Assembly: GCA_946699065.1 (NCBI GenBank) | Contig: CAMPDV010000109.1 | Coordinates: 682,001-746,000 of the forward strand | DNA length: 64,000 bases | DNA from: Loxodes magnus | Taxonomy: Eukaryota > Ciliophora > Karyorelictea > Loxodida > Loxodidae | Direction: 5' to 3' | Translations under genes and position numbers: made by a program | The notes under the pieces: generated by a model | The model's database searches: none | The model's input: the letters and a program-made list of their open reading frames with translations, nothing else | What the model was told of the DNA's origin: nothing | Shown here: positions 8,141-27,309 of the stretch, piece after piece | Position numbering within the stretch: position 1 is the first letter of the stretch | Layout of the letters: every line of letters begins with the position of its first letter

Positions 8141-9903
8141 CTACTTGTTTTGGTTAGTAAGTATCAATTAAAATAGATAGGAATCTAGTATAAGAGTATT
8201 AAAATCGAGTAAAATATTCACATTTTTTCAATAAATATGACTAAGCAGACTAAAGACTTTGCTCCTGCAAAATTATAGTAGCAAAAACTTTTTTTAAAAA
8301 CTGAGATGAAATCCAAAAGATATTTTATATGTTCTTTATTTCTTCAGCCTTCTTTAAGTTGCAAACTCAAACTAATTTAGATTTCTTCTCAAAAGATTGA
8401 ATGATTCTTTTACAAACTTATCTTCAAAATATTTTATCTATAATAAGAGTTTTTGCCTTACTTCTTATCATTGAAATTTAATATGTTCAACTTATTTTAA
8501 GTATTTTTTGCTTAAAGAGTATCTTATCTAAAAAGGAGATAAAGTTTATAGAATTTTTTCGATAAAAATTTTGGTTTCTATCATTAGATTACGCTAATTG
8601 TATTAAAGATAAAGACCAAAGTGATTTTATTTCCATCAAATTATAGATAGTAAGCAAGTAAGTAGTATAGTAAGAGCAATTTCTTTCTTATCCTTCAGTG
8701 TAGGGGTAATTTTTCCCTTCCAAAATATTTTGGAAAAATTCGAACTTTGAAAATTTTAGCAAATACTAGCAGATAGATAGATTGTTTTAATCTTTTGTTA
8801 TCTTTCTTATCTTCAAGCAGATTTTTTTAATTCTTTTGGCTTAAATTTACAAAATAATTTTTAGGATTTATATAAATGTTGAGATAATAAGATTTAGACA
8901 GACAAGGTCCATTTTCATTTTCATTTTCATTTTGTATTAGCAAACTAAATGTTGCATTCTTCTGAGCTAAAAAGAAAAGATCGATCCTTAGTACGTAAAA
9001 GAACAGCTAGCTAAGGTGAATTTTAGATATTACTTTACAAGGTTACTTTCCACTGAGATGGAATAATACCTTTTATACTTTAAGAAGTAAAAAAATTAAA
9101 ATACTAAGTTTACTCTTACTTCTATTCAAATTACCTATTTTTTATTGATTATTCTTCTCATTTCCATAAATATCCTGCTGCTAAACCTCTAACGTCAAAT
9201 GCTAGTTCAAACTATTATCATTATCAGATAAGCATCAAATTTGATTAAAATGGCTATATCTTAATTTATCAATTGTATCTTTTTTATTCCTAAGAGTACT
9301 TACTTCTAGTTAGAATCATAAGCAATCACATATATCTGCTTCTAAATAAATTAAGCTATTCTCTTAAATCAATTAACTCTAAATAATCTAATCATTTCTT
9401 TTAGTCTCTCATCTCTGAAAACATAATTTTCGAAATTTTTATTTAAATCTTCTAAATGAAAACTGAACTAAAAAAGCTAGCTTAGTGTAAAAACCTTAAT
9501 TAAAAAAAATAAAAAAGAATTAAGGAAATAAAATAATCAATTAAAATAGCTAAAAATAGTAATTAAATTTATCCTTCCTTTTATTACTAAAGCCTTTATA
9601 TATAACTAGCTTCCATTATCCACTTCATTTGTTCTATTAACTTATAAATAAAGACTAAATAATTATAGAACTATACTAGCTAATTATTAAACCCATTTAG
9701 ATTTATATAGTAAAAGAAAATAGTTATTTAAGTTACCTTAGTACGTTTTAATTTATATGAGCTTTTGAATAATAGTTTTGAGACTAGTTTAATAGCTGTC
9801 TCATAATAAATAACTAATGTATTCTTAAGCTTTCGTTGAAGGTTAAAGATAAATGATTTGTTTATTTTAGTTTAATTTAATTCCATTTTTAATTATAATC
9901 AAA
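8141..9903. other. AT-rich stretch without a confident gene
   Basis: Both strands contain open, weakly protein-like frames between 8,230 and 9,300 (a plus-strand ATG at 8,231 reading MTKQTKDFAPAK, and a minus-strand frame through 8,900-8,350). Neither is clearly better, and open frames are cheap in this code. From about 9,480 to 9,903 I see only AT-rich sequence, presumably the upstream region of the RING gene. Confidence 0.4.
8911..8936 (+). repeat. CATTTT hexanucleotide repeat
   Basis: Four near-perfect copies of CATTTT in tandem. Confidence 0.85.
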
Positions 9904-11229
9904 ATGGCTGAATCCTACAGGTGCAACTCATGCTAGTGTAATTTCGACTCTTAAATAGTCATTCCCGCTACCCTTCCTTGCAAACATCAAGTTTGCCAAA
10001 CTTGTTTTCTTGAAGAATAATAAAAAGAAGGTTCTAGCCAGTGCTCAAAAGGAAAGTGCCAAAATGTTTCATTTGATGATCCAAAAAGTTAAATAAACTA
10101 AAAAAACTAATAAAGTGAAAGTAAATAAGAGTACTAATAACTTCATCTTGAAGAAACTAAAAATGAAATATCTTTATACTAACAACTTAAACTAATAAAA
10201 GTTTAGATTTTAGCAGAAAATAAAGAAGAAATAAGCTTAATGGTAGAGGAAGGAGGAACAATTGATTAACTGAAATAAAAAATAGAAAGAAAAGAAGGAA
10301 TTGATTCTGGTTTCTATGAGCTTTATAAAAAAGAAGGAAAATTAGATAGTTAACATAAAATAAATAAAATGGAGAACGAAGAAGAAGTTTAGTTAGAGCT
10401 AAAGTTGAATGAATGCAATAAATATAATTTTTAGGAAGTGAGAAAAATTAAATTATACTTAGAAGGTAGAAAATAAATATAGAAAGTAATTAATAAAAAT
10501 TAGTTTACGAGATAATAAAAATATAATATAGTAAATAATATAATAATAGAACGTAAAGTTTTAGCATAAATTAGAAAGTAAAATATCCAAAATAGGAGAA
10601 AGTAAGAAAATATAAAAGAAGATTAAAATGAATTCAATCAAAGTTAAGAATAAATATTCAGGAGGTAAATTTTAAAAAAGTGTGTAATATATTCAATAAA
10701 AGGGAGTAATGCCTTAAAAACTAGAAAGTATTAAAATTAATTTTAAGAATGTAATAAAATAAATAAGATTGTAAAAATACTAAGAAAGGAAGTAAAAATT
10801 AAATATAGAATGTAAAAAATAAAGAAGATTGTAAAGTAATAATAAAAAGATGGTAAATAATCATATCAAGAAAGTAATATACTTAGTGTATAGCGAGTAA
10901 AATTAATAAATAAAGGAGGTAAAAATTAAAATGAGAGGGTATTTCTATTTAAAGCAGAATGTAAGAAATATTAGATGCTTATAGATGGTAAGATTTTTTA
11001 TATATTTATAGTGGGTAAGATTATTTTAAATATTTAAAGAATGTAAGTTATTTTAAATTTTTTAGTGAGTAAGATATTTTTAAATATTTATAGAATGTAA
11101 GATATTTTTAATATTTTAGTGAGTTAGATATTTAAAATATTTATAGGGGGTAAGTTATTTTAATTATTACTAGATGGTAAGGTATCTAGAATATTTGTAG
11201 AATGTAAATATTTTTAATTTTTATAGTGA
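9904..11229 (+). CDS. RING-finger plus ubiquitin-like domain protein with 9-residue repeats
   Basis: The frame opens at ATG 9,904. Residues 7-52 form a RING-like module: C7-x2-C10, C26-x-H28, C31-x2-C34, then C47 and C52. Residues about 97-170 look like a ubiquitin fold: IKVQILAENKEEISLMVEEG, then GGTIDQLKQKIERKEGI, which parallels ubiquitin's TIENVKAKIQDKEGI, then YELYKKEGKLD. RING proteins usually act as E3 ubiquitin ligases, and a ubiquitin-like domain would suit proteasome or ubiquitin-system docking. Both roles are inferred. From about residue 175 the protein is basic and built from degenerate 9-residue units (E-C/G-K/R at the start of each). These merge with the 27-bp tandem repeat downstream. 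There is no TGA before 11,227-11,229, taken here as the stop. Since TGA can be Trp the protein could be longer. TAA and TAG as Gln are frequent. Confidence 0.65.
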
Positions 11230-12260
11230 GTAAAGAATTAAAAATATTTATAGAATGTAAGAAAATAAATATTTATAGATTGTAAGTATTTTTAATTTTA
11301 ATAGAATGTAAAATATTTAAAATATTTATAGGATGTAAAACATTCTTTATTTTTATAGTGAGTATGATATTTAAATATTAATAGAGAGTAAGATTATTTA
11401 AATATTAATAGAGGGTAATTATTTTAAATATTTATAGATTGTAAGAACCTTTTTACCTTTATAGTGAGTAAAATATTTAAATATCTATAGAAAGTAAGAT
11501 ATTTTTAATAATTTAGTGAGTAAAATATTTTAAATATTTATAGAATGCAAGATATTTTAAATATTCATAGTGAGTAAGATGTTTTAAATATATATAGGGT
11601 GTAAAGCTTAGCTATTTAAAGTGGGTAAATATTTAAAATATTTATAGATAGTAAGATATTTTAATTATTTATAGAGGGTAAGATAATTCAAATATTTATA
11701 GCATGTAAATATTTTTAATTTTTATAGTGAGTGAGATATTTTAAATATTTTAGATGGTAAGATATTTTAAATATTTGTAGGGTGTAAGACATTTTAAATA
11801 TTTATAGTGTGTAAGATATTTAAAATATTTATAGAGAGTAAAAATTTTTAATTATTTATAGTTGGTAAATATTATAAATATTATAGACGGTAATATTTTA
11901 AATATTTATAGAGAGTAAGACATTCTAAATATTTACAGAGGGCAATCATTTAAATATTTACAGCTTGTATATATTTTTATTTATAGTCTGTGATAAAAAT
12001 TATTATAGTTGGTATCTTTATATTGATAATAGATGGTGTTAAATTACTTCAGGCGGTAAGAATTTACTTTAGGTATTTTTTAATTTTTGATTGTAAGAAA
12101 TAATTATTAGATGGTTTTGATTTTATTGCAGCTTGTATTTATTTATATGAGTTTGTAATTTTTAAGTTTAGTCAGTAAAAAATTATTTAGAATGTAATAT
12201 TTTTAATATCTATAGGGGGTAATAATTCATTTTCAAAGAAAGTAATGTCTAATAATAGGT
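10980..12260 (+). repeat. 27-bp degenerate tandem repeat
   Basis: The word GTAAG (or close variants) recurs at 10,988, 11,015, 11,043, 11,069, 11,097, 11,123, 11,150, 11,177 and 11,204, giving spacings of 26-28 with a mean of 27. This continues to about 12,260 with increasing decay. The unit is roughly GTAAGATATTTT followed by AAATATTTATAGAAT. Read in frame it gives a 9-residue unit ECKIFQIFI. Weaker 9-codon periodicity extends upstream into the RING gene to about 10,430. Paired 28/26 spacings restore the frame, but many units do not, so most of the array is probably non-coding. Confidence 0.8.
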
Positions 12261-15739: not shown

Positions 15740-16138
15740 ATAATACGATAAATAAATTAATTAATTAATGTGGGTCTGCCATTATAGGCTATCCACGGAT
15801 TAATGTTTTAATAATAAAGTCTTGATACTCTTTTCTGCTTGTTTTAATTCACAAATGTGAAACCTTCTTCTCTCTATTCTTGTGACTCTGTCTAAGGACG
15901 GAGTTTAAGTTCTTAAGGAATTCTCATTCTAGTACAAAAATCAGTCTTGAGTATCTTCTATAGTTAGAAATCTTAGTTTATTTTTGCCTCAGCTATGCCT
16001 TGCTTTTCACCAAGCTACTATCCAAATTGACGGCATAGTGAATAGGAGAGCTTCTGAGGCCCAAACTACAGAATAAGACTCGCTTTTTCTGATATTTAGT
16101 CTCAAGCTAGAGACTAGCTTAAGACTCACCGTCCATAT
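15740..16138 (-). mobile_element. SINE-like element S3 with LINE-type 3' hairpin and ATTA tail
   Basis: Read on the minus strand from about 16,138 (ATATGGACGGTGAGTC). The body is densely self-complementary: GTCTCAAGCTAG and CTAGCTTAAGAC form a hairpin at 16,099-16,125; GCCTCAG 15,986-15,992 pairs with CTGAGGC 16,054-16,060; inside it CTATGCC 15,993-15,999 pairs with GGCATAG 16,032-16,038; and ACTCTGTC/GACGGAGT forms another near 15,890. The 3' end is a GTGG..CCAC hairpin (15,770-15,796) and an ATTA/ATTT tail (15,740-15,768). That 3' end resembles the 3' end of LINE fragment C at 16,985-17,038. This is consistent with a SINE borrowing a LINE 3' end. Confidence 0.6.
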
Positions 16139-16167
16139 TTTAAATTATTATAATATATATAATTTAA
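16136..16167. repeat. AT palindrome between head-to-head SINE-like elements
   Basis: TTTAAATTATTATAAT and ATATATAATTTAAA form an almost perfect inverted repeat of about 30 bp between the 5' ends of S3 (minus) and S4 (plus). It could be a junction product or a shared AT-rich promoter. Confidence 0.55.
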
Positions 16168-16556
16168 ATAGGGTGGAAAGCCCTTTCCTTCGGATGTTGC
16201 TTGGAGGCCAGCAAGGCAAATAAAAAATAAGCGCAGACGGAGGATAAATCGAGAAAGAGAAATCAATGACAAGAGAGAGCCGATGTAACAAGCTGAAGAA
16301 CTCTGAATGCCAGGAGGAAACTTTCTTCATTATAGGTCGGAGAAATGTAACCGTAATCGCATATTGCATTCTATGCTTTGGAGGGTTAAATTGCATGCTC
16401 TCACTGCAGGAAGGGAAAACAGGGACAAAGAGATATAAAATTTTTTTTCGACATTAAATATAATTAATTTAAAGAGCTGCGCACCAACGAGAGTGCTACG
16501 CGCTCTATAATCCAATTTATTTATTTAACTAAAAAAATAACAATAAAACTTTACTC
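16160..16556 (+). mobile_element. SINE-like element S4, copy of S5
   Basis: About 390 bp at high identity to the reverse complement of 22,130-22,515. It runs from TTTAAATAGGGTG to ACAATAAAACTTTACTC, beyond which the two copies part. The body contains pairable segments, for example TCCTTCG near 16,187 with CGGAGGA near 16,238. The 3' part has the AGAGC..GCTCT hairpin at 16,473-16,506 and an ATTTATTTA tail. A 63-codon standard-code frame (MTRESRC..) is present in both copies. Its differences are a mix of silent and replacement changes, so it is unlikely to be a gene. Confidence 0.65.
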
Positions 16557-16984
16557 CCATTAAAGAAAATTAAATACTTTTTGAAGCGCTTCATAAGATC
16601 AGACTATCAACACTTAAAGCATGTAAGCAAATCAGATAGAAATTAATACAAGACCACAAAAAAATAGAAAATAAGCAATAATTATAAATTCAAATGGCTA
16701 TAATAGAGAAAAAGCAGAAAAAATGATGATTGAAAAAGGAAATTATCAGAAATCTTAAAAGAAAAAGAAATAAACAATAAAAAAATTAAATCTGTTTTAG
16801 ATGATAAAAGGCATATAAATCGACAACATAAAAAAGTTATAAATGAAACGGAAAAAAAATCGAAGTTTAAAAGTAAAAGAAAAAAAACAAGTGTAGAAAT
16901 GAACAACCGATTAAGATCTAAAAATCTAAAAATCAAAAAATCAAAAAAAAAACTATAAATGTTGAAGAAAGAGTTTATGAATGA
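16557..16984 (+). pseudogene. Short Lys/Arg-rich coding-like segment between insertions
   Basis: The plus-strand reading is strongly basic and helical (KKIKSVLDDKRHINRQHKKV, KFKSKRKKTSVEMNNRLR). It has no start and runs directly into the antisense tail of LINE fragment C. It may be the displaced end of the coiled-coil gene at 14,445, separated from it by S3 and S4, but nothing in the sequence proves that. Confidence 0.3.
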
Positions 16985-21200: not shown

Positions 21201-22128
21201 TATAGTAAACGAAATTATGAGAATTTAAATGCTAAGTTGCCAAGAAGTAGTCATTACAATAGCATTAATTATTCGCTCTATGAATAAATGTGTTGGACTC
21301 ATTATCATTTAAAATTATTAATTCATTTGCTTCTATAAAGTCTAGTAATCTTTAAGTGTTATTATTGATTTGTGATTAATTATTACCGTAGTTAGGATGT
21401 AAGGCATTAAAGTCGTCACAGAGGATAGTAGGGTTCTGGTCGCTATTATTTATTATATTATTAAGGTATTCATATGTAATGTCCTTAAAAATATTTGACT
21501 TTTCATTTGTAGGCAAATAACATGATGCAATTATTAAATTTCCAACTCTCACGCTTATAAAATGTCCAGGAAGATTTGAGAAATCTAATTCGTTTTAACA
21601 AGAATCAAGTTACTTTTTTACTAATAGACATACTCCACCAGCACGTTTATTTGCGTTTTAGTAATAGGTACGATATTGTTCTATAACAATTGGGCAATAT
21701 TTTTATTACGTTCATGTTTCATTTATTGAAAAAATGTCAAATTCATTATCAAGGATGAATTATTATAATGCCACCTGTTTACTAGCTAATGAGCTTATAT
21801 TTACATGTCCTATTTTTATTTTCTTAGATTCTTGCGCTTCACCAGGGAGTCCTCCCTAATATATGCAAATATATTTAGTCCCTTATAAATCTCTTTAGAT
21901 ATGTACCAGTTCTTTTTTATAATCAGGGTGTTAGTGGAAATATTAAATAAACGTAAATTACTTAGATCGAATTAGATTCTAGTAGTTTATTGTCTATTTT
22001 AATAACATTTTAGGTACTATCTACAGTGCCTTGAATTAAATCTTTATTAATTGTTATATACCTTCCTTGAAAATTGCTCATTTAATATTAGTTCCTCTTT
22101 CACGAACCTTCTCTGATAAAGTTTTAGA
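18243..22128 (-). mobile_element. LINE B, nearly complete non-LTR retrotransposon
   Basis: A minus-strand element of about 3.9 kb with an AP-type endonuclease, reverse transcriptase and C-terminal zinc motif in the usual order, ending in a TTAA-rich tail at 18,243-18,265. A short hairpin (TATAGT/ACTATA, about 18,320-18,335) precedes the tail. The SINE-like element S5 lies immediately upstream of its 5' end. Only a few frame changes are visible, so it is the youngest LINE in the window. Fragments of the same or related families lie at 960-1,640, 6,120-6,560, 12,640-13,945 and 16,985-18,242. Confidence 0.85.
18400..22085 (-). pseudogene. LINE endonuclease-reverse transcriptase
   Basis: This would cut target DNA and copy the element RNA into the genome. 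Endonuclease motifs on the minus strand: DIFSINETW (21,711-21,745; the Trp is TGA), GGVCLLVKK, IASCYLPTNE, ILCDDFNALHPNYGN (21,384-21,425) and GSHTDNFPLSITL (about 21,165). Reverse transcriptase: NNKTTGNEGLKL, ILPIFKKGNKNN then RPIALLN, motif A ATLIDVEKMFDS (19,995-20,030), motif B GVLQGSSHAPVL (19,811-19,850), motif C AFADEL (about 19,705; the usual YADD has become FADE) and VNYLGYQL. The C-terminal zinc motif is CLCG-x6-DHIFEC (18,671-18,725). ATG 22,085 (MSNFQGRYITINKDLI) is a plausible start. I see about three frame changes: near 21,900, between the reverse transcriptase N-terminus and the KKG motif, and just after motif C. Stop position is not fixed. Confidence 0.75.
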
Positions 22129-22129
22129 G

Positions 22130-22525
22130 TAAAGTTTTATTGTTATTTTTTTAGTTAAATAAATAAATTGGATTATAGAGCGCGTAGCACTCTCGTTGGT
22201 GCGCAGCTCTTTAAATTAATTTTATTTAATGTCGAAAAAAAATTTTATGTCTCTCTGTCCCTGTTTTCCCTTCCTACCATCCCTGTAATTTTTCCTTCCA
22301 AAACATAGGATGCAATATGCGATTACGGGCACATTTCCCCGACCTATAATGAAGAAAGTTTCCTCCTGGCATTCAGAGTTCTTCAGCTTGATACATCGGC
22401 TTTCTCTTGTCATTGATTTCTCTTTCTCCGATTTATCCTCCGTCCGAGCTCATTTTTTTTGTTGCTTTGCTGGGCCTCAAAACAGCATCCGAAGGAAAGG
22501 GTTTTTCACCCTATTTAAGTTTTAA
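22130..22525 (-). mobile_element. SINE-like element S5, copy of S4
   Basis: The reverse complement is highly similar to 16,160-16,556 over its whole length, including the AGAGC..GCTCT hairpin (22,210 to 22,177) and ATTTATTTA tail. It lies directly upstream of LINE B in the same orientation. It could therefore be either an independent SINE insertion or the 5' leader of the LINE. The S4 copy has no LINE after it, which favours an independent element. Confidence 0.6.
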
Positions 22526-23033
22526 TAGTTAATAATTCGATTATATTTTATTTAGTCAGCTATTAGTCTTTATAAATTCTTAATGTAAGTTAAACATGAA
22601 TCAAACTTTCTGTTTATATTTGTACTTTTTTTTTAAGTTGTAATTTCTTCGATTTATTGTGGTATTGTATTATTTTTTATGTTTTAAGCTTATTCTATAA
22701 TATTAAAGTTTCGAATATTCAAAAAGCATTTCATGTTTTTTTTCTAGTTAATTGGGAAGTTATTGTTAAGCTTAATAAGAATATTATATTTTTTAAAAGA
22801 TGATGTGATTATAAGTATAGTATTTTCATACTTATTCTTATAATATTTATGAGTTTTATAAAAGATGTTTTTGATTTTAGCCTACATTTTTTGTTTAATT
22901 TGTATTTTTTATTTTAAACATTTCTCATCGAATATTTAAAATATTATTTTCATAGATTAATTGATTTATTAATGTTTTTGCTGATAGTTATAATTTGTTA
23001 AATTTCCATAATCATCTTTTCATATTTTAAAAA
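22526..23033. other. AT-rich intergenic stretch
   Basis: Strongly AT-rich, T-rich on the plus strand. No gene, repeat or structure recognised. Confidence 0.5.
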
Positions 23034-23802: not shown

Positions 23803-26130
23803 ATGGATAGCAATCAGTGTCCAAACTGTAAAGAGCAATTTGATTAAGACAAGCGACTGTCTAAGCAATTACCTTGTAGTTGCATTTCATGTTTAAATTG
23901 TCTTAAAGCAATTTTTTAATTTACTAAGAAAATTGAATGTGTCTTACATAACTAAGTCTTTAACATTAATCCTGAAGAGTTACAAGGACATCAAGTTTAA
24001 GTATAAGTTCAGTAAGAAGTACCGCAACATTAAGAAACAATAATTGATCAAGTACTAATCAATGAGTAGTTCAAGTCGTTGAAAAGTTTTTAAGTCCATA
24101 AGTAAAATTATTTTACCACAATAAGAGAAATAATTGAGGACAGTTCTTAGCTTATAAAGCATATCCAATCGTTATCAGTAATTGAAATTTTTAAAACTTT
24201 AATAGATAAAATTTCTCTTAGTAACAACAAAGTTTAAAATTTAATATAACGATTAACTGAGCTTCTAGCAGCAAATCAGTTGCAATAAGATTAAGCCTAA
24301 AGAATGGGCTAATAGTAAGTAAACTAACAGTAAAATGGTCAAGCATAAGAATAGTTTAAGTAAATCTTACATGAGATAGACGAACTAAAGAGAGAATAAA
24401 ACTAACAAATGGACATTTAAATCTTGAGAACCAATATCTAACAATGCTTGTTCAACGTCTTCAATTATCTAAGAGAGAATGCCAATGGTCAGTAATTAAC
24501 ATTAAGTCAGGCAGAGTAGTTAGTATAAAAGTTTTTCGAGCAATTTAAGTTTATCAGAGGACATATTTAGTCATAAAGCCTAGTTGTGCAATAACAAAGT
24601 TAAATAAAATCGTAAAATACCGATCTCTAAATTAAAAAAGAAATTCAAAATATCTGTTAAGAATAATAAGAGCAAGAAATCACTTAAAAATAAAGAAAAG
24701 CTATAGTTCAAGCTAAAGAATCTTCTGTCTAGTTTGATATTTTGCAAAATCGAATAAAAATCATCGACGGCAAAACCTTAGTTTCTACAATGGAATAAAA
24801 GATAAAAAATATTTAAAATAGCTTCAATTTTGATAATCAAGTAATCTAAGTTTGCTAATAATAATCAAACTTAATCATGCCTATAATTCCAAACCCCTCT
24901 AATCTATTACTTAATAACTAACTATAGTACGCCAATTAAAGCTTCTCAAACATTGACTTAACTAACGCTGATATCTCTGACACCACATTCACCAACTGTA
25001 ATTTCTCCAACTCAAACCTAACATCAGCTAACCTGCGTAACACTAAGTTCCTCAATTGCGACCTCTCCAACGCTAACCTTACCTCAATCTCCTCCGAACA
25101 CCCTCACATATTCACTGGACACTCAAAATCAGTCACTTCCGTGGCCATCTCTTCAGATGCCAACTTAATCCTTTCTGGATCATGAGACTAAACCTTAAAA
25201 CTTTACAACATAGCTGAAGGTACCTGTAAGACCATGAGTGGTCACACAGGTTGTGTATCATCTGTGGCTATATCCAGTGATTCAGAGTTCATCGTATCGG
25301 GAAGTTGAGATAAGACGGTGAGACTATGGAACGTCAAGACAGGTACCTGTAAGACCATGAGTGGTCACACAGATTCTGTATCATCTGTGGCTATATCCAG
25401 TGATTCAGAGTTCATCGTATCGGGAAGTTATGATTATACGGTGAGACTATGGGACGTCAAGACAGGTACCTGTAAGACCATGAGTGGTCACACTAATTCT
25501 GCATTATCTGTGGCTATATCCAGTGATTCAGAGTTCATCGTATCGGGAAGTGTAGATTAGACGGTGAGACTATGGGACGTCAAGACAGGTACCTGTAAGA
25601 CCATGAGTGGTCACACAAATTCTGTATCATCTGTGGCTATATCCAGTGATTCCACTTAAATCATATCTGGATCGTATGACAAAACTATTCGTTAATGGAG
25701 CTCAAGAACATAATAATGTACCAAGGTCTTATCGGGTCACACCTCTTATGTCTTATCGGTAATATTCTCGAATAACAACAAGTATATCTTATCTGGATCT
25801 CATGACAAGACCATAAGAATCTGAAATATCAATAATGGTTAGTGTATCTGTGTACTATAGGGTCATACTGACACAGTGGGTAGTTTATCATTATCTAGGG
25901 ACAACAACTGGTTGGTATCAAGTAATGGATGCAAGTTTTCTCTTTATAACTAATCTTAAGATTACAACATTCGAAGATGGAATATAGGAAGGATATTGAA
26001 TGGATCTGATACTAACAGCTAATAATAGGTAAGTTTTAACACACCACATTTATATAGACTGACTGGAGCAAAGTATATGCTGACTATGGTTTAAGATTTT
26101 AGAACTGCGTAATGGCTAATACTACAATGA
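23803..26130 (+). CDS. RING-like, coiled-coil, pentapeptide and WD40 repeat protein
   Basis: The frame is unbroken from ATG 23,803 for about 775 residues. Residues 6-49 form a RING-like zinc module: C6-x2-C9, C25-x-C27, C30-x2-C33, C46-x2-H49. Residues about 55-375 are Gln-rich helix. Residues about 381-427 are pentapeptide repeats (NIDLTNADISDTTFTNCNFS and onward). From about residue 434 follow seven WD40 repeats that should close one beta-propeller. This architecture suggests an E3 ligase-like adaptor recognising targets through the propeller. That is an inference. Repeats 2-4 are 41 residues (123 bp) and almost identical. Three TGA codons lie inside the propeller (25,183, 25,306, 25,822). 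The last is at the invariant Trp of IRIW, so TGA is Trp here. I take TGA 26,128 as the stop, with 26,326 as the next candidate. From about 24,880 the codons are G+C-richer than in the N-terminal half. Confidence 0.85.
25234..25677 (+). repeat. 123-bp near-identical WD40 units
   Basis: Units start at ATG 25,234, 25,357, 25,480 and 25,603. The first three match at nearly every base and differ only at codons 5-9, 25, 27 and 33 of the unit. The fourth matches for about 50 bp and then diverges. Confidence 0.9.
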
Positions 26131-26455
26131 GTGTAGAGGACAGATAGAGATACATCAGGTGATCTTTATGAAGTTAAACTATTTAAACTATTTAATTTTT
26201 ACATTTAAGAATCTAAAATTGGTTAAGTCTTAATACTAATTATTTATGTTCACTTTCTTATTATTTGTATTATTTTAAGTAAAAAAAAGTTTTAAGATTG
26301 GCGATTTTTTTCTAAGTCTTTTTTCTGAACTTAGTAATTTTTATTAATAAAAGTTAAAATTTAAGTTAAAGCAAAGTCTTATATTAACTATCGAAATTTT
26401 TTTTAAGTAAGAATTATAAAAAAAGTAAAAGCAGAGTTAAAAAACAAAAAATATT
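26131..26455. other. 3' flank of the WD40 gene
   Basis: The first 60 bp still look coding if TGA 26,128 is Trp (DRDTSGDLYEVKLFK). After about 26,190 the sequence is featureless and AT-rich. Confidence 0.4.
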
Positions 26456-26790
26456 CTAGTGTTAGGAAAATTTTTTGAAGTATATACCATTTAAATAAAT
26501 TTTAAATTTTTCTAGCGTTAGAAAAATTTTGAAGTATGTACTAGAGACAAATAGATTTTAAATTTTCTGGCGTTAGGAAAAATTTTTGGAGTATGTACTA
26601 GAGTTAAAAGTATTAAAATTTCTGGTGTTAGGAAAAATTTTTGAAGTACGTACTAGAGCTAAAAAAATTTTAATTTTTCTGGCGTTAGAAAAATTTTAGA
26701 GTTATGTACTAGAGCTAATTTTTTTTAATTTTATAGTATGGCTTTAGAAATTTTTTTGAGTTACGTGACAGCGCAAAGTATTTTTAATTT
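26456..26790 (+). repeat. 55-bp tandem repeat, about six copies
   Basis: Units begin with CTGGCGTTAGGAAAAATTTT and contain GTATGTACTAGAGCTA. They start at 26,456, 26,512, 26,567, 26,622, 26,679 and about 26,734 (spacings 55-57). The last copy is strongly decayed. No coding frame is maintained. Confidence 0.85.
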
Positions 26791-27098
26791 GCTATAAAAT
26801 TTAATTACATTTGTTATAATTTTTATTTTTTTTACGATAGGAAAAATTTAGTATACTATATAATAAATGGACAGCAGATTAAAATTTTAATGAGTTAGAA
26901 GCCCTGAAAATGGCGAAAAGTGTCAAAGCCTTTTTTTGCTCAGCGTTTTACACTATAGGGCTGAGTTGGGACGGAACAAGCTGGGGGATTTCGGGATTAG
27001 TAGAGGGTCAGAAAGGAATAAATTTTTTAAGAACAAATTTTAAAATAAAAAAGGATTTTGAAAAAAAATGGGGAAAAATTTTTGAGGCAATTTTTTTG

Positions 27099-27267
27099 AT
27101 TTTGGTTTTGAAAATTTTGAGTTTGGTTTTGAAAATTTTGAGTTTGGTTTTGAAAATTTTGAGTTTGGTTTTGAAAATTTTGATTTTGGTTTTGAAAATT
27201 TTGAGTTTGGTTTTGAAAATTTTGAGTTTGGTTTTGAAAATTTTGAGTTTGATTTTGAAAATTTTGA
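27099..27267 (+). repeat. 21-bp minisatellite
   Basis: Eight copies of the unit TTTGGTTTTGAAAATTTTGA plus one base, nearly identical, nested between two copies of the 150-bp block. Confidence 0.9.
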
Positions 27268-27309
27268 TATTGGATTTTGATTTTGATTTTGATTTTGATT
27301 TTGATTTTG
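27268..27309 (+). repeat. GATTTT hexanucleotide repeat
   Basis: About six copies of GATTTT directly after the 21-bp minisatellite, probably grown out of its TTTTGA words. Confidence 0.9.

Follow-up and report, generated by a model that had tools for sequence, protein, structure and literature searches.

What keeps neighbouring WD40 repeats of one gene nearly identical down to their silent positions, but lets them differ at a few codons that change the amino acid? The question is raised by a gene of the karyorelict ciliate Loxodes magnus, found in a 64,000-nucleotide stretch of contig CAMPDV010000109.1 (positions 682,001 to 746,000 of the forward strand; hereafter the window, whose own numbering is used throughout). 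One protein gene occupies 23803-26162 on the plus strand, with its ATG at 23803, when TAA and TAG are read as Q and TGA as W. Its product of ~776 residues carries a RING-like finger, a linker, pentapeptide repeats and a WD40 propeller, in that order. A sequence-only reading of the window had proposed concerted evolution of the repeat together with diversification at the propeller surface, in the manner of the fungal incompatibility gene het-e. Having followed this up across the genome, we consider it likely that the gene belongs to a receptor repertoire whose diversity comes from exchange of repeats and from selection at the ligand face, and whose blades have undergone runaway amplification to give a satellite.

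Blades 2 to 4 of the window gene

The units that begin at 25234, 25357 and 25480 each measure 123 bp (41 codons) and form blades 2, 3 and 4 of seven. Recounted codon by codon, they are exactly as first described, identical outside a few codons. The first two differ at 7 nucleotides in codons 6, 7, 25, 27 and 33, where every change is a replacement; the second and third differ at 8 in codons 5 (a silent ACA/ACT change), 6, 8, 9, 25 and 27, and the first and third at 10 in codons 5-9, 25, 27 and 33, all remaining codons being letter-identical across the three. The amino acid changes at codons 6, 7, 8, 9, 25, 27 and 33, and one further change is silent. A hand count gives 13 minimal changes, which are confined to 8 of the 41 codons (P = 0.009 for no more than that number), and one codon has received four of them (P = 0.009 for four or more).

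These sites are familiar from the NWD genes of the fungus Podospora, where codons 7, 9, 25 and 27 of the unit are under strong positive selection and codons 8 and 26 are conserved (Paoletti et al. 2007, PMC1805685; this and the other papers are cited from parts of their text). All four selected codons are among the seven replacement-variable codons of the window gene (P = 3.5e-4), and five of the seven lie within the 7-codon set of HET-E (P = 5e-4). The positions given in PMC12222747 (10, 11, 12, 14, 30, 32 and 39) are the four codons of Paoletti et al. shifted by five, plus three more.

One alternative is plain recent tandem duplication within each gene, followed by a few changes under relaxed selection and with no exchange between genes. 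It would suit the window taken alone, since 1 silent change in 13 is no significant deficit (P = 0.157), and a claim that silent changes are scarce needs the paralogs. Hu et al., moreover, ascribe the high internal identity of prokaryotic WD40 proteins to recent repeat duplication (PMC5587647). It does not suit the landing of the changes on fungal sites, and it fares worse once the rest of the family is considered.

Gene family and probable exchange of blades between genes

We searched 7843 contigs, which together make up an assembly of 705,730,643 bp; the published macronuclear (MAC) assembly of Loxodes magnus measures 706 Mbp, uses code table 27 and has abundant tandem repeats (PMC11441545). 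With residues 1-436 as the query the family appeared at 96 places or more (window gene included), all with E < 1e-139 and the best of 3294 candidates scored. The printed identities, 54-78% for the others and 88% for the window gene itself, are too low because TAA and TAG were scored as mismatches; ten matches read with the correct code are 77-90% identical to the window gene. A degenerate pattern for the pentapeptide part (CNFxNSNLT) matched 349 times in the genome and its reversed control not once, and as the motif is present in 7 of 11 aligned family sequences, the family probably comprises several hundred genes, haplotype duplicates and fragments included.

Blades were read in 12 genes (L029-L040, L029 being the window gene) and in further genes. 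A set of 18 genes used below excludes the contig duplicates L046, L048 and L050 and the array-bearing L042; alignment A1 was built without L030, L037 and L040, alignment A2 without L037, and one further comparison was made without L030. Every family gene that was read codes for a RING-like finger, a long linker, a short pentapeptide solenoid and, as a rule, a single propeller of seven blades. Seven blades were counted in nine of the 12 genes and six in L037 and L040, while in L030 the frame is broken within blade 5. In the common plan blade 1 is usually diverged (framework identity usually 0.61-0.81, although 0.95 in L032), two to six blades are of the satellite type described below, one is a hybrid and the last two are diverged. 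Genes with 6, 7, 10 (L044) and at least 18 blades were seen, an unlisted last blade being included for genes that were read completely.

Silent sites were compared over the 66 pairs of the 12 genes. N-termini differ by a median of 0.371, blade 1 by 0.406 and blade 6 by 0.262, but the framework of satellite-type blades by only 0.039, which equals the mean found within genes (0.039). With silent differences of 0.04 in the blade units against 0.37 in the N-termini, about 10-fold lower, the blade units are therefore homogenised between genes, and concerted evolution of the repeat is upheld across the 12 genes. Plain duplication is largely refuted by this equality; it is further opposed by the silent ACA/ACT polymorphism at codon 5, which is common to genes and arrays, and by the chimeric L037, and we now regard it as very improbable.

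L037 lies 28 kb from L036. The two show no difference in 1500 upstream positions or in the 123 of blade 1, and 6 in 1308 of the N-terminus, which all lie in the interval 1143-1175. Beginning at codon 25 of blade 2, the remainder of the stretch is 7-9% different, and L037 has one whole blade fewer. The pair looks like young duplicates in which L037 would be a recombinant with its breakpoint inside the repeat, in blade 2. Probably one common pool of 123-bp units supplies blades 2-4 as well as the first half of blade 5, and recombination, as unequal crossing-over or gene conversion, keeps these units near-identical in and among genes and spreads variants.

It also should be considered that collapsed or inflated repeats in the assembly could mimic both homogenisation and the giant arrays described below. 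Misassembly of low-complexity repeats is blamed by the genome's authors for part of the size difference between micronuclear (MIC) and MAC assemblies (PMC11441545), and array lengths probably exceed read lengths. However, the assembly was made from HiFi (circular consensus, CCS) reads, the low-complexity share is similar in unassembled MIC and MAC reads (PMC11441545), family genes are clearly different outside their blades, and the 18 genes yield 52 haplotypes, not one collapsed unit. An artefact is, in our view, scarcely credible.

Variable codons and the propeller face

The 52 haplotypes, defined at the variable codons, come from 56 units. Ordered by amino-acid entropy in the 18 genes, the codons run 25, 27, 9, 7, 6, then 10 and 33, and the four Podospora codons all stand within the top five (P = 5e-5). 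Minimum-spanning steps comprise 47 replacement and 5 silent changes at the seven variable codons, against 31 and 16 in the framework (Fisher P = 0.003). Diversity is found at codons 7, 9, 25 and 27, by variability and by replacement excess alike, with codons 8 and 26 conserved (mostly Val and mostly Asp in family units). There are departures from the fungal set, in that codon 5 varies mostly silently, codon 34 is nearly invariant and codons 10 and 33 are variable.

A single-sequence fold of the WD40 part was poor (predicted local distance difference test, pLDDT, 46) and was replaced by an AlphaFold2 model from a 36-row alignment of 9 family members and 27 database proteins, which reached pLDDT 92 and a predicted template modelling score (pTM) of 0.90. 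Units, model and Foldseek all give seven blades closing one propeller, with a template modelling score over the query (TMq) of 0.85 to PkwA (5YZV); the model is nearest to WDR5 (6BYN best by E-value) and other seven-bladed propellers, with TMq 0.83 to 2YMU. The top face of a WD40 propeller is formed by its d-a and b-c loops, which is established geometry. In the model strand a opens with codons 9 and 10 and is directly preceded by codons 6 and 7; the b-c turn contains 25 and 27, and 33 is at the end of strand c. Most of the variable codons are placed in the d-a and b-c loops, which are on the top face (PMC1805685), with exposure being read off secondary structure and alignment rather than computed from coordinates. 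The two proposals made from the window alone, a likeness to het-e and variation at the propeller surface, both hold at this level, as the variable codons coincide with those of the Podospora NWD genes.

Codon 9 falls at S91 of WDR5 and codon 25 at D107 (from aligned ranges with 2xl2, assuming no internal gap); S91 takes part in ligand binding at the WIN site, where an inhibitor also makes contact with D107 (PMC6859963). On the model, most of the variable codons would form a ligand-facing rim, and for that reason selection has probably diversified codons 6, 7, 9, 25 and 27 and, to a lesser degree, 10 and 33. WDR5 itself is a conserved scaffold and is not known as a hypervariable family; the likeness lies in the fold and in codons 9 and 25 falling at residues in or close to its WIN peptide pocket.

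All three canonical stop triplets act as diversity codons in the sampled genes and arrays, TGA (W) at codons 7, 9 and 25 and TAG/TAA (Q) at codons 7, 9, 25 and 27.

Satellite arrays of the blade unit

The genome search with blades also returned, unexpectedly, giant in-phase arrays of the same 123-bp unit. Neither this satellite nor the large family had been noticed in the sequence-only reading. An exact 27-mer (codons 16-24) occurs 374,649 times (165,005 forward, 209,644 reverse; control 0), and if each 27-mer marks 123 bp the arrays amount to ~46.1 Mb, or 6.5% of the assembly. Our sample consisted of 20 stretches of 6-10 kb around matches, ~0.4% of the units; 19 of them are filled with units and L018 is so over about two thirds of its length. 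They contain 1532 units, from which 67 with framework identity below 0.93 were dropped to leave 1465 (559 distinct), and phase is kept for up to 160 units over two adjoining stretches (L016/L017). With long head-to-tail arrays, very high copy number and no clear coding constraint, this is satellite DNA.

The hypervariable codons of the arrays are the same as in the genes, with 403 haplotypes in the 1465 units and 354 combinations of 5' and 3' blocks, and the array consensus has no difference from the gene consensus at 99 framework sites. Framework variant types in the arrays number 33 silent and 89 replacement, where 30.4 and 91.6 are expected from their own spectrum, and the ratio of replacement to silent change (N/S) by types is near neutral at 0.83-0.91. 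Framework variant types of the genes recur in the arrays in 32 of 47 cases (19.3 expected, P = 4e-5). The arrays would appear to drift almost neutrally at framework codons, yet to keep the variable codons of the receptor type.

How such arrays may arise is suggested by C1063, where an apparently intact N-terminus and blade 1 run directly into 17 units. Beyond these only sampled points were read, eight of them as far as contig position 10,000 (56 kb or more away), and all eight contained units, with a single frame break. Because the unit run begins behind an apparently intact gene N-terminus, C1063 points to growth of a gene into satellite, and tandem expansion of blades may sometimes run away in this manner to give the giant in-phase arrays.

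The same run at C1063, and the phase kept over 160 units, would equally be seen if the arrays were giant genes for proteins with hundreds of WD40 blades, the more so as TGA, the sole stop of the code, is readable as W. Many stretches, however, have register breaks, mostly of 1 nucleotide, and framework variants are near neutral by types as given above. Furthermore, the last unit of the C893 array is cut short near its end and the DNA that follows is free of units, so this is not the end of a gene. Giant genes are in our judgement very improbable. Past the end of the C893 array (L018:6430-10000), translations resemble, by eye, a reverse-transcriptase-type element.

The order of events could also be turned round, with a selfish 123-bp satellite captured repeatedly by genes and the variable codons reflecting old subtypes of the satellite and not selection on a receptor. 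More than 99% of the units lie outside genes (assuming about three units per gene), the arrays are rich in variable-codon haplotypes, and framework variants are shared between genes and arrays, all of which would agree with a satellite origin. Nevertheless the unit is a regular 41-codon WD40 blade whose variation is concentrated at fungal-selected sites, neutral satellite variation would not favour replacements at codons 7, 9, 25 and 27, and at least one run, that of C1063, starts from a gene. We therefore consider capture of a pre-existing satellite improbable.

Weighing the receptor interpretation

Against a receptor repertoire diversified by repeat exchange and ligand-face selection stand several findings, beginning with the non-significant silent shortage in the window units alone. 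The hypervariable set for masking and for the Fisher test was chosen partly post hoc, and only the tests on fungal codons use a preset list; codon 33 lies off the top face, and codon 10 is outside the fungal set. Blade number is steady, with about seven blades in 30 of 32 paired genes and about five in two among the matches listed, whereas fungal genes vary; this pairing of N- and C-terminal motifs covered 35 C-motif places on contigs in both match lists, left 3 without a partner within 60 kb and would miss long expansions. Three pairs of near-identical contigs, perhaps alleles (C1169/C1788, C81/C449 and C1486/C2351), carry identical satellite-type blades, so change is invisible between such copies. 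N/S in the arrays is lower by occurrence (0.66, from 296 silent and 637 replacement) than by types, so that some constraint or shared ancestry seems to be left in them. Stronger framework constraint in genes than in arrays is weakly indicated (P = 0.048 by cells, which are non-independent, and P = 0.26 by types), and we dropped a clear difference as poorly supported. Mutation bias or parallel mutation may explain part of the shared framework variants, and the sampled arrays, being ~0.4% of the units, contain only 3 of the 56 gene units and 8 of the 52 haplotypes. Lastly, the finger falls below the Pfam cut-off, as discussed with the protein architecture.

The arrays may exchange units with the genes today. 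Taken to its full extent, this would make them a genome-scale archive, with ~375,000 pre-diversified in-phase units renewing blades 2-5 by conversion or crossing-over. We hold this to be a rather doubtful extension, but if true, satellite DNA would be the variable-segment library of a unicellular recognition repertoire. Loxodes offers a system in which a possible role of satellite DNA as a library of donor units can be investigated.

Comparison with known systems

Homogenisation of repeats and selection on propeller codons are already known in fungal incompatibility receptors with ~70 units. The NWD/HNWD genes of Podospora anserina (het-d, het-e and het-r) and the Loxodes family are alike in having near-identical WD40 units within and between genes (PMC1805685, PMC12222747), and also in their diversity at codons 7, 9, 25 and 27 on the propeller top, in unit reshuffling and, less clearly, in changes of repeat number. 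The Podospora genes are NACHT-containing NOD-like receptors (NLRs), some with HET, ten in number with ~70 units, and functional alleles usually have 11 repeats (PMC1805685, PMC12222747). In contrast, the Loxodes proteins have no NACHT domain that we could find, an N-terminus that is RING-like and without homologs in our search, and normally seven blades, and there are probably several hundred genes plus a satellite of ~375,000 units. Because no NACHT domain was found, the Loxodes genes are not assigned to the NWD family.

Repetitive prokaryotic and cyanobacterial WD40 proteins (2YMU; PMC5587647) resemble the Loxodes blades in high internal identity and in having the same fold, and several of the best sequence matches to the window protein are named NACHT or NB-ARC proteins. 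The ciliate genes differ in forming a multigene family with another N-terminus.

What is new here is the same evolutionary device and the same codons in a ciliate, with another receptor architecture, at a far larger scale and linked to a satellite. Units are ~5,000 times more numerous than in the fungal system, and the majority lie in satellite arrays. The shuffling of repeats as a source of receptor diversity can therefore be studied at unusual scale, and satellite DNA and receptor repertoires, usually separate subjects, are joined in one system. Our literature search, which left subscription papers mostly outside, found nothing linking Loxodes with WD40 and no paper on a satellite as a reservoir of receptor units; on a coding-derived WD40 satellite it returned only seemingly unrelated papers, by title and abstract, and on ciliate WD40, pentapeptide or RING proteins only work on peroxisome proteins.

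Gene structure and protein architecture

The window gene (Table 1) shows the features of the karyorelict code (table 27), with TAA/TAG as Q, in-frame TGA as W, including at canonical WD40 Trp sites (GSWD, RIWN), and a predicted terminal TGA stop. The homogenised tract outruns blades 2-4 because blade 5 shares its first half.

Table 1. Features of the gene, in window positions.
Feature	Position	Strand	Basis or remark
Exon 1 (742 codons)	23803..26028	+	Translation
RING-like Cys/His cluster C6-C9-C25-C27-C30-C33-C46-H49	23818..23949	+	Family alignment, Pfam, profile matches
Pentapeptide repeats (residues 375-429)	24925..25089	+	Pfam
WD40 blade 1, diverged, outside homogenised set	25111..25233	+	Unit comparison
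Homogenised tract, period 123, 3.5 copies	25218..25652	+	Tandem Repeats Finder (TRF)
WD40 blade 2, satellite-type unit	25234..25356	+	Unit comparison
WD40 blade 3, satellite-type unit	25357..25479	+	Unit comparison
WD40 blade 4, satellite-type unit	25480..25602	+	Unit comparison
WD40 blade 5, satellite-type first half, diverged second half	25603..25725	+	Unit comparison
WD40 blade 6, diverged	25729..25851	+	Unit comparison
WD40 blade 7, limits approximate	25852..25992	+	Translation and model
29-nucleotide GT..AG intron, predicted	26029..26057	+	Excision brings back the C-terminal frame of paralogs
Exon 2, conserved tail, TGA stop 26160-26162	26058..26162	+	Paralog tails; stop position hand-counted

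Of the fusion proposed from the window alone, a RING-like and a pentapeptide module joined to WD40 repeats, the pentapeptide part stands (Pfam E 4e-9). The finger, judged from its sequence, is RING-like only: zf-RING_2 gives E 0.042, and the profile match to the RINGs of TRIM23 and TRIM32 is weak (E 0.13-0.51), while an alignment of 11 family members shows no change at any of the eight Cys/His. The linker is long and Gln-rich, and presumably helical. No homolog of residues 1-362 (RING-like finger and linker) was found at E <= 0.001 among 4354 candidates, and the 52 matches of a search with residues 1-430 are all pentapeptide-domain proteins. Neither NACHT nor NB-ARC is found in Pfam among the 25 of 40 families listed for the protein, nor in its N-terminal 436 residues, where the Pfam scan likewise gave no B-box.

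TRIM-type ubiquitin ligases combine a RING, a coil and a variable C-terminal recognition domain. The Loxodes protein is like them in module order and in its weak finger match, and unlike them in giving no B-box in the Pfam scan, in having pentapeptide repeats and WD40 in place of the usual TRIM C-terminal domains and in a finger below Pfam cut-offs. From the variation pattern and this architecture we infer a ubiquitin-ligase-like recognition receptor, in which the finger could serve as a ubiquitin ligase and the propeller may bind variable ligands (self/non-self, prey or parasites).

Genomic placement and neighbourhood

Pooling the 96 N-terminal places with 100 of the 349 motif places gives at least 175 distinct loci. 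Among the matches listed, 78 loci start no more than 60 kb from the left end of their contig, and 66 of these have minus-strand orientation and so point to that end; on low-numbered contigs 34 of 35 such loci point outward; on contigs of known extent, 11 of 12 point to the nearer end. Array places have no outward bias (8 of 17), and the idea that arrays point to contig ends as genes do was not supported. The contig ends to which these genes point are either chromosome ends or places where the assembly stops in satellites. As Loxodes telomeres have eluded the genome's authors and are not yet found, the many family genes near contig ends have a possible bearing on chromosome ends.

Close behind the window gene lies an 80-bp satellite (28612-63998, ~442 copies, 95% matches). 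A 40-mer of it has 81,570 copies throughout the assembly. On C5, too, this satellite separates a family gene from the contig end.

Upstream of the gene, a related repeated sequence is seen by eye at 21479-22852 and also at ~1000-2000 and 16000-16600. Upstream of L032 there are the same translations as in one copy of this type of repeat (PQSHIASY..LEGKITG, NFFSTLNKINLKSCAPTRVLRA), and L033 is preceded by a neighbouring part, so family genes may have been duplicated together with an upstream repeated element. A second RING-like frame with a ubiquitin-like stretch is present at 9895-10450 (PF00240 E 0.0018, zf-RING_5 E 0.019, neither reaching the cut-off). In the window no Rfam family and no tRNA gene (ARAGORN, bacterial code) was detected. 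AT-rich tandem repeats lie near the gene at 10961-11960 (~27 bp), 26449-26718 (~55 bp) and 27094-27298 (~21 bp).

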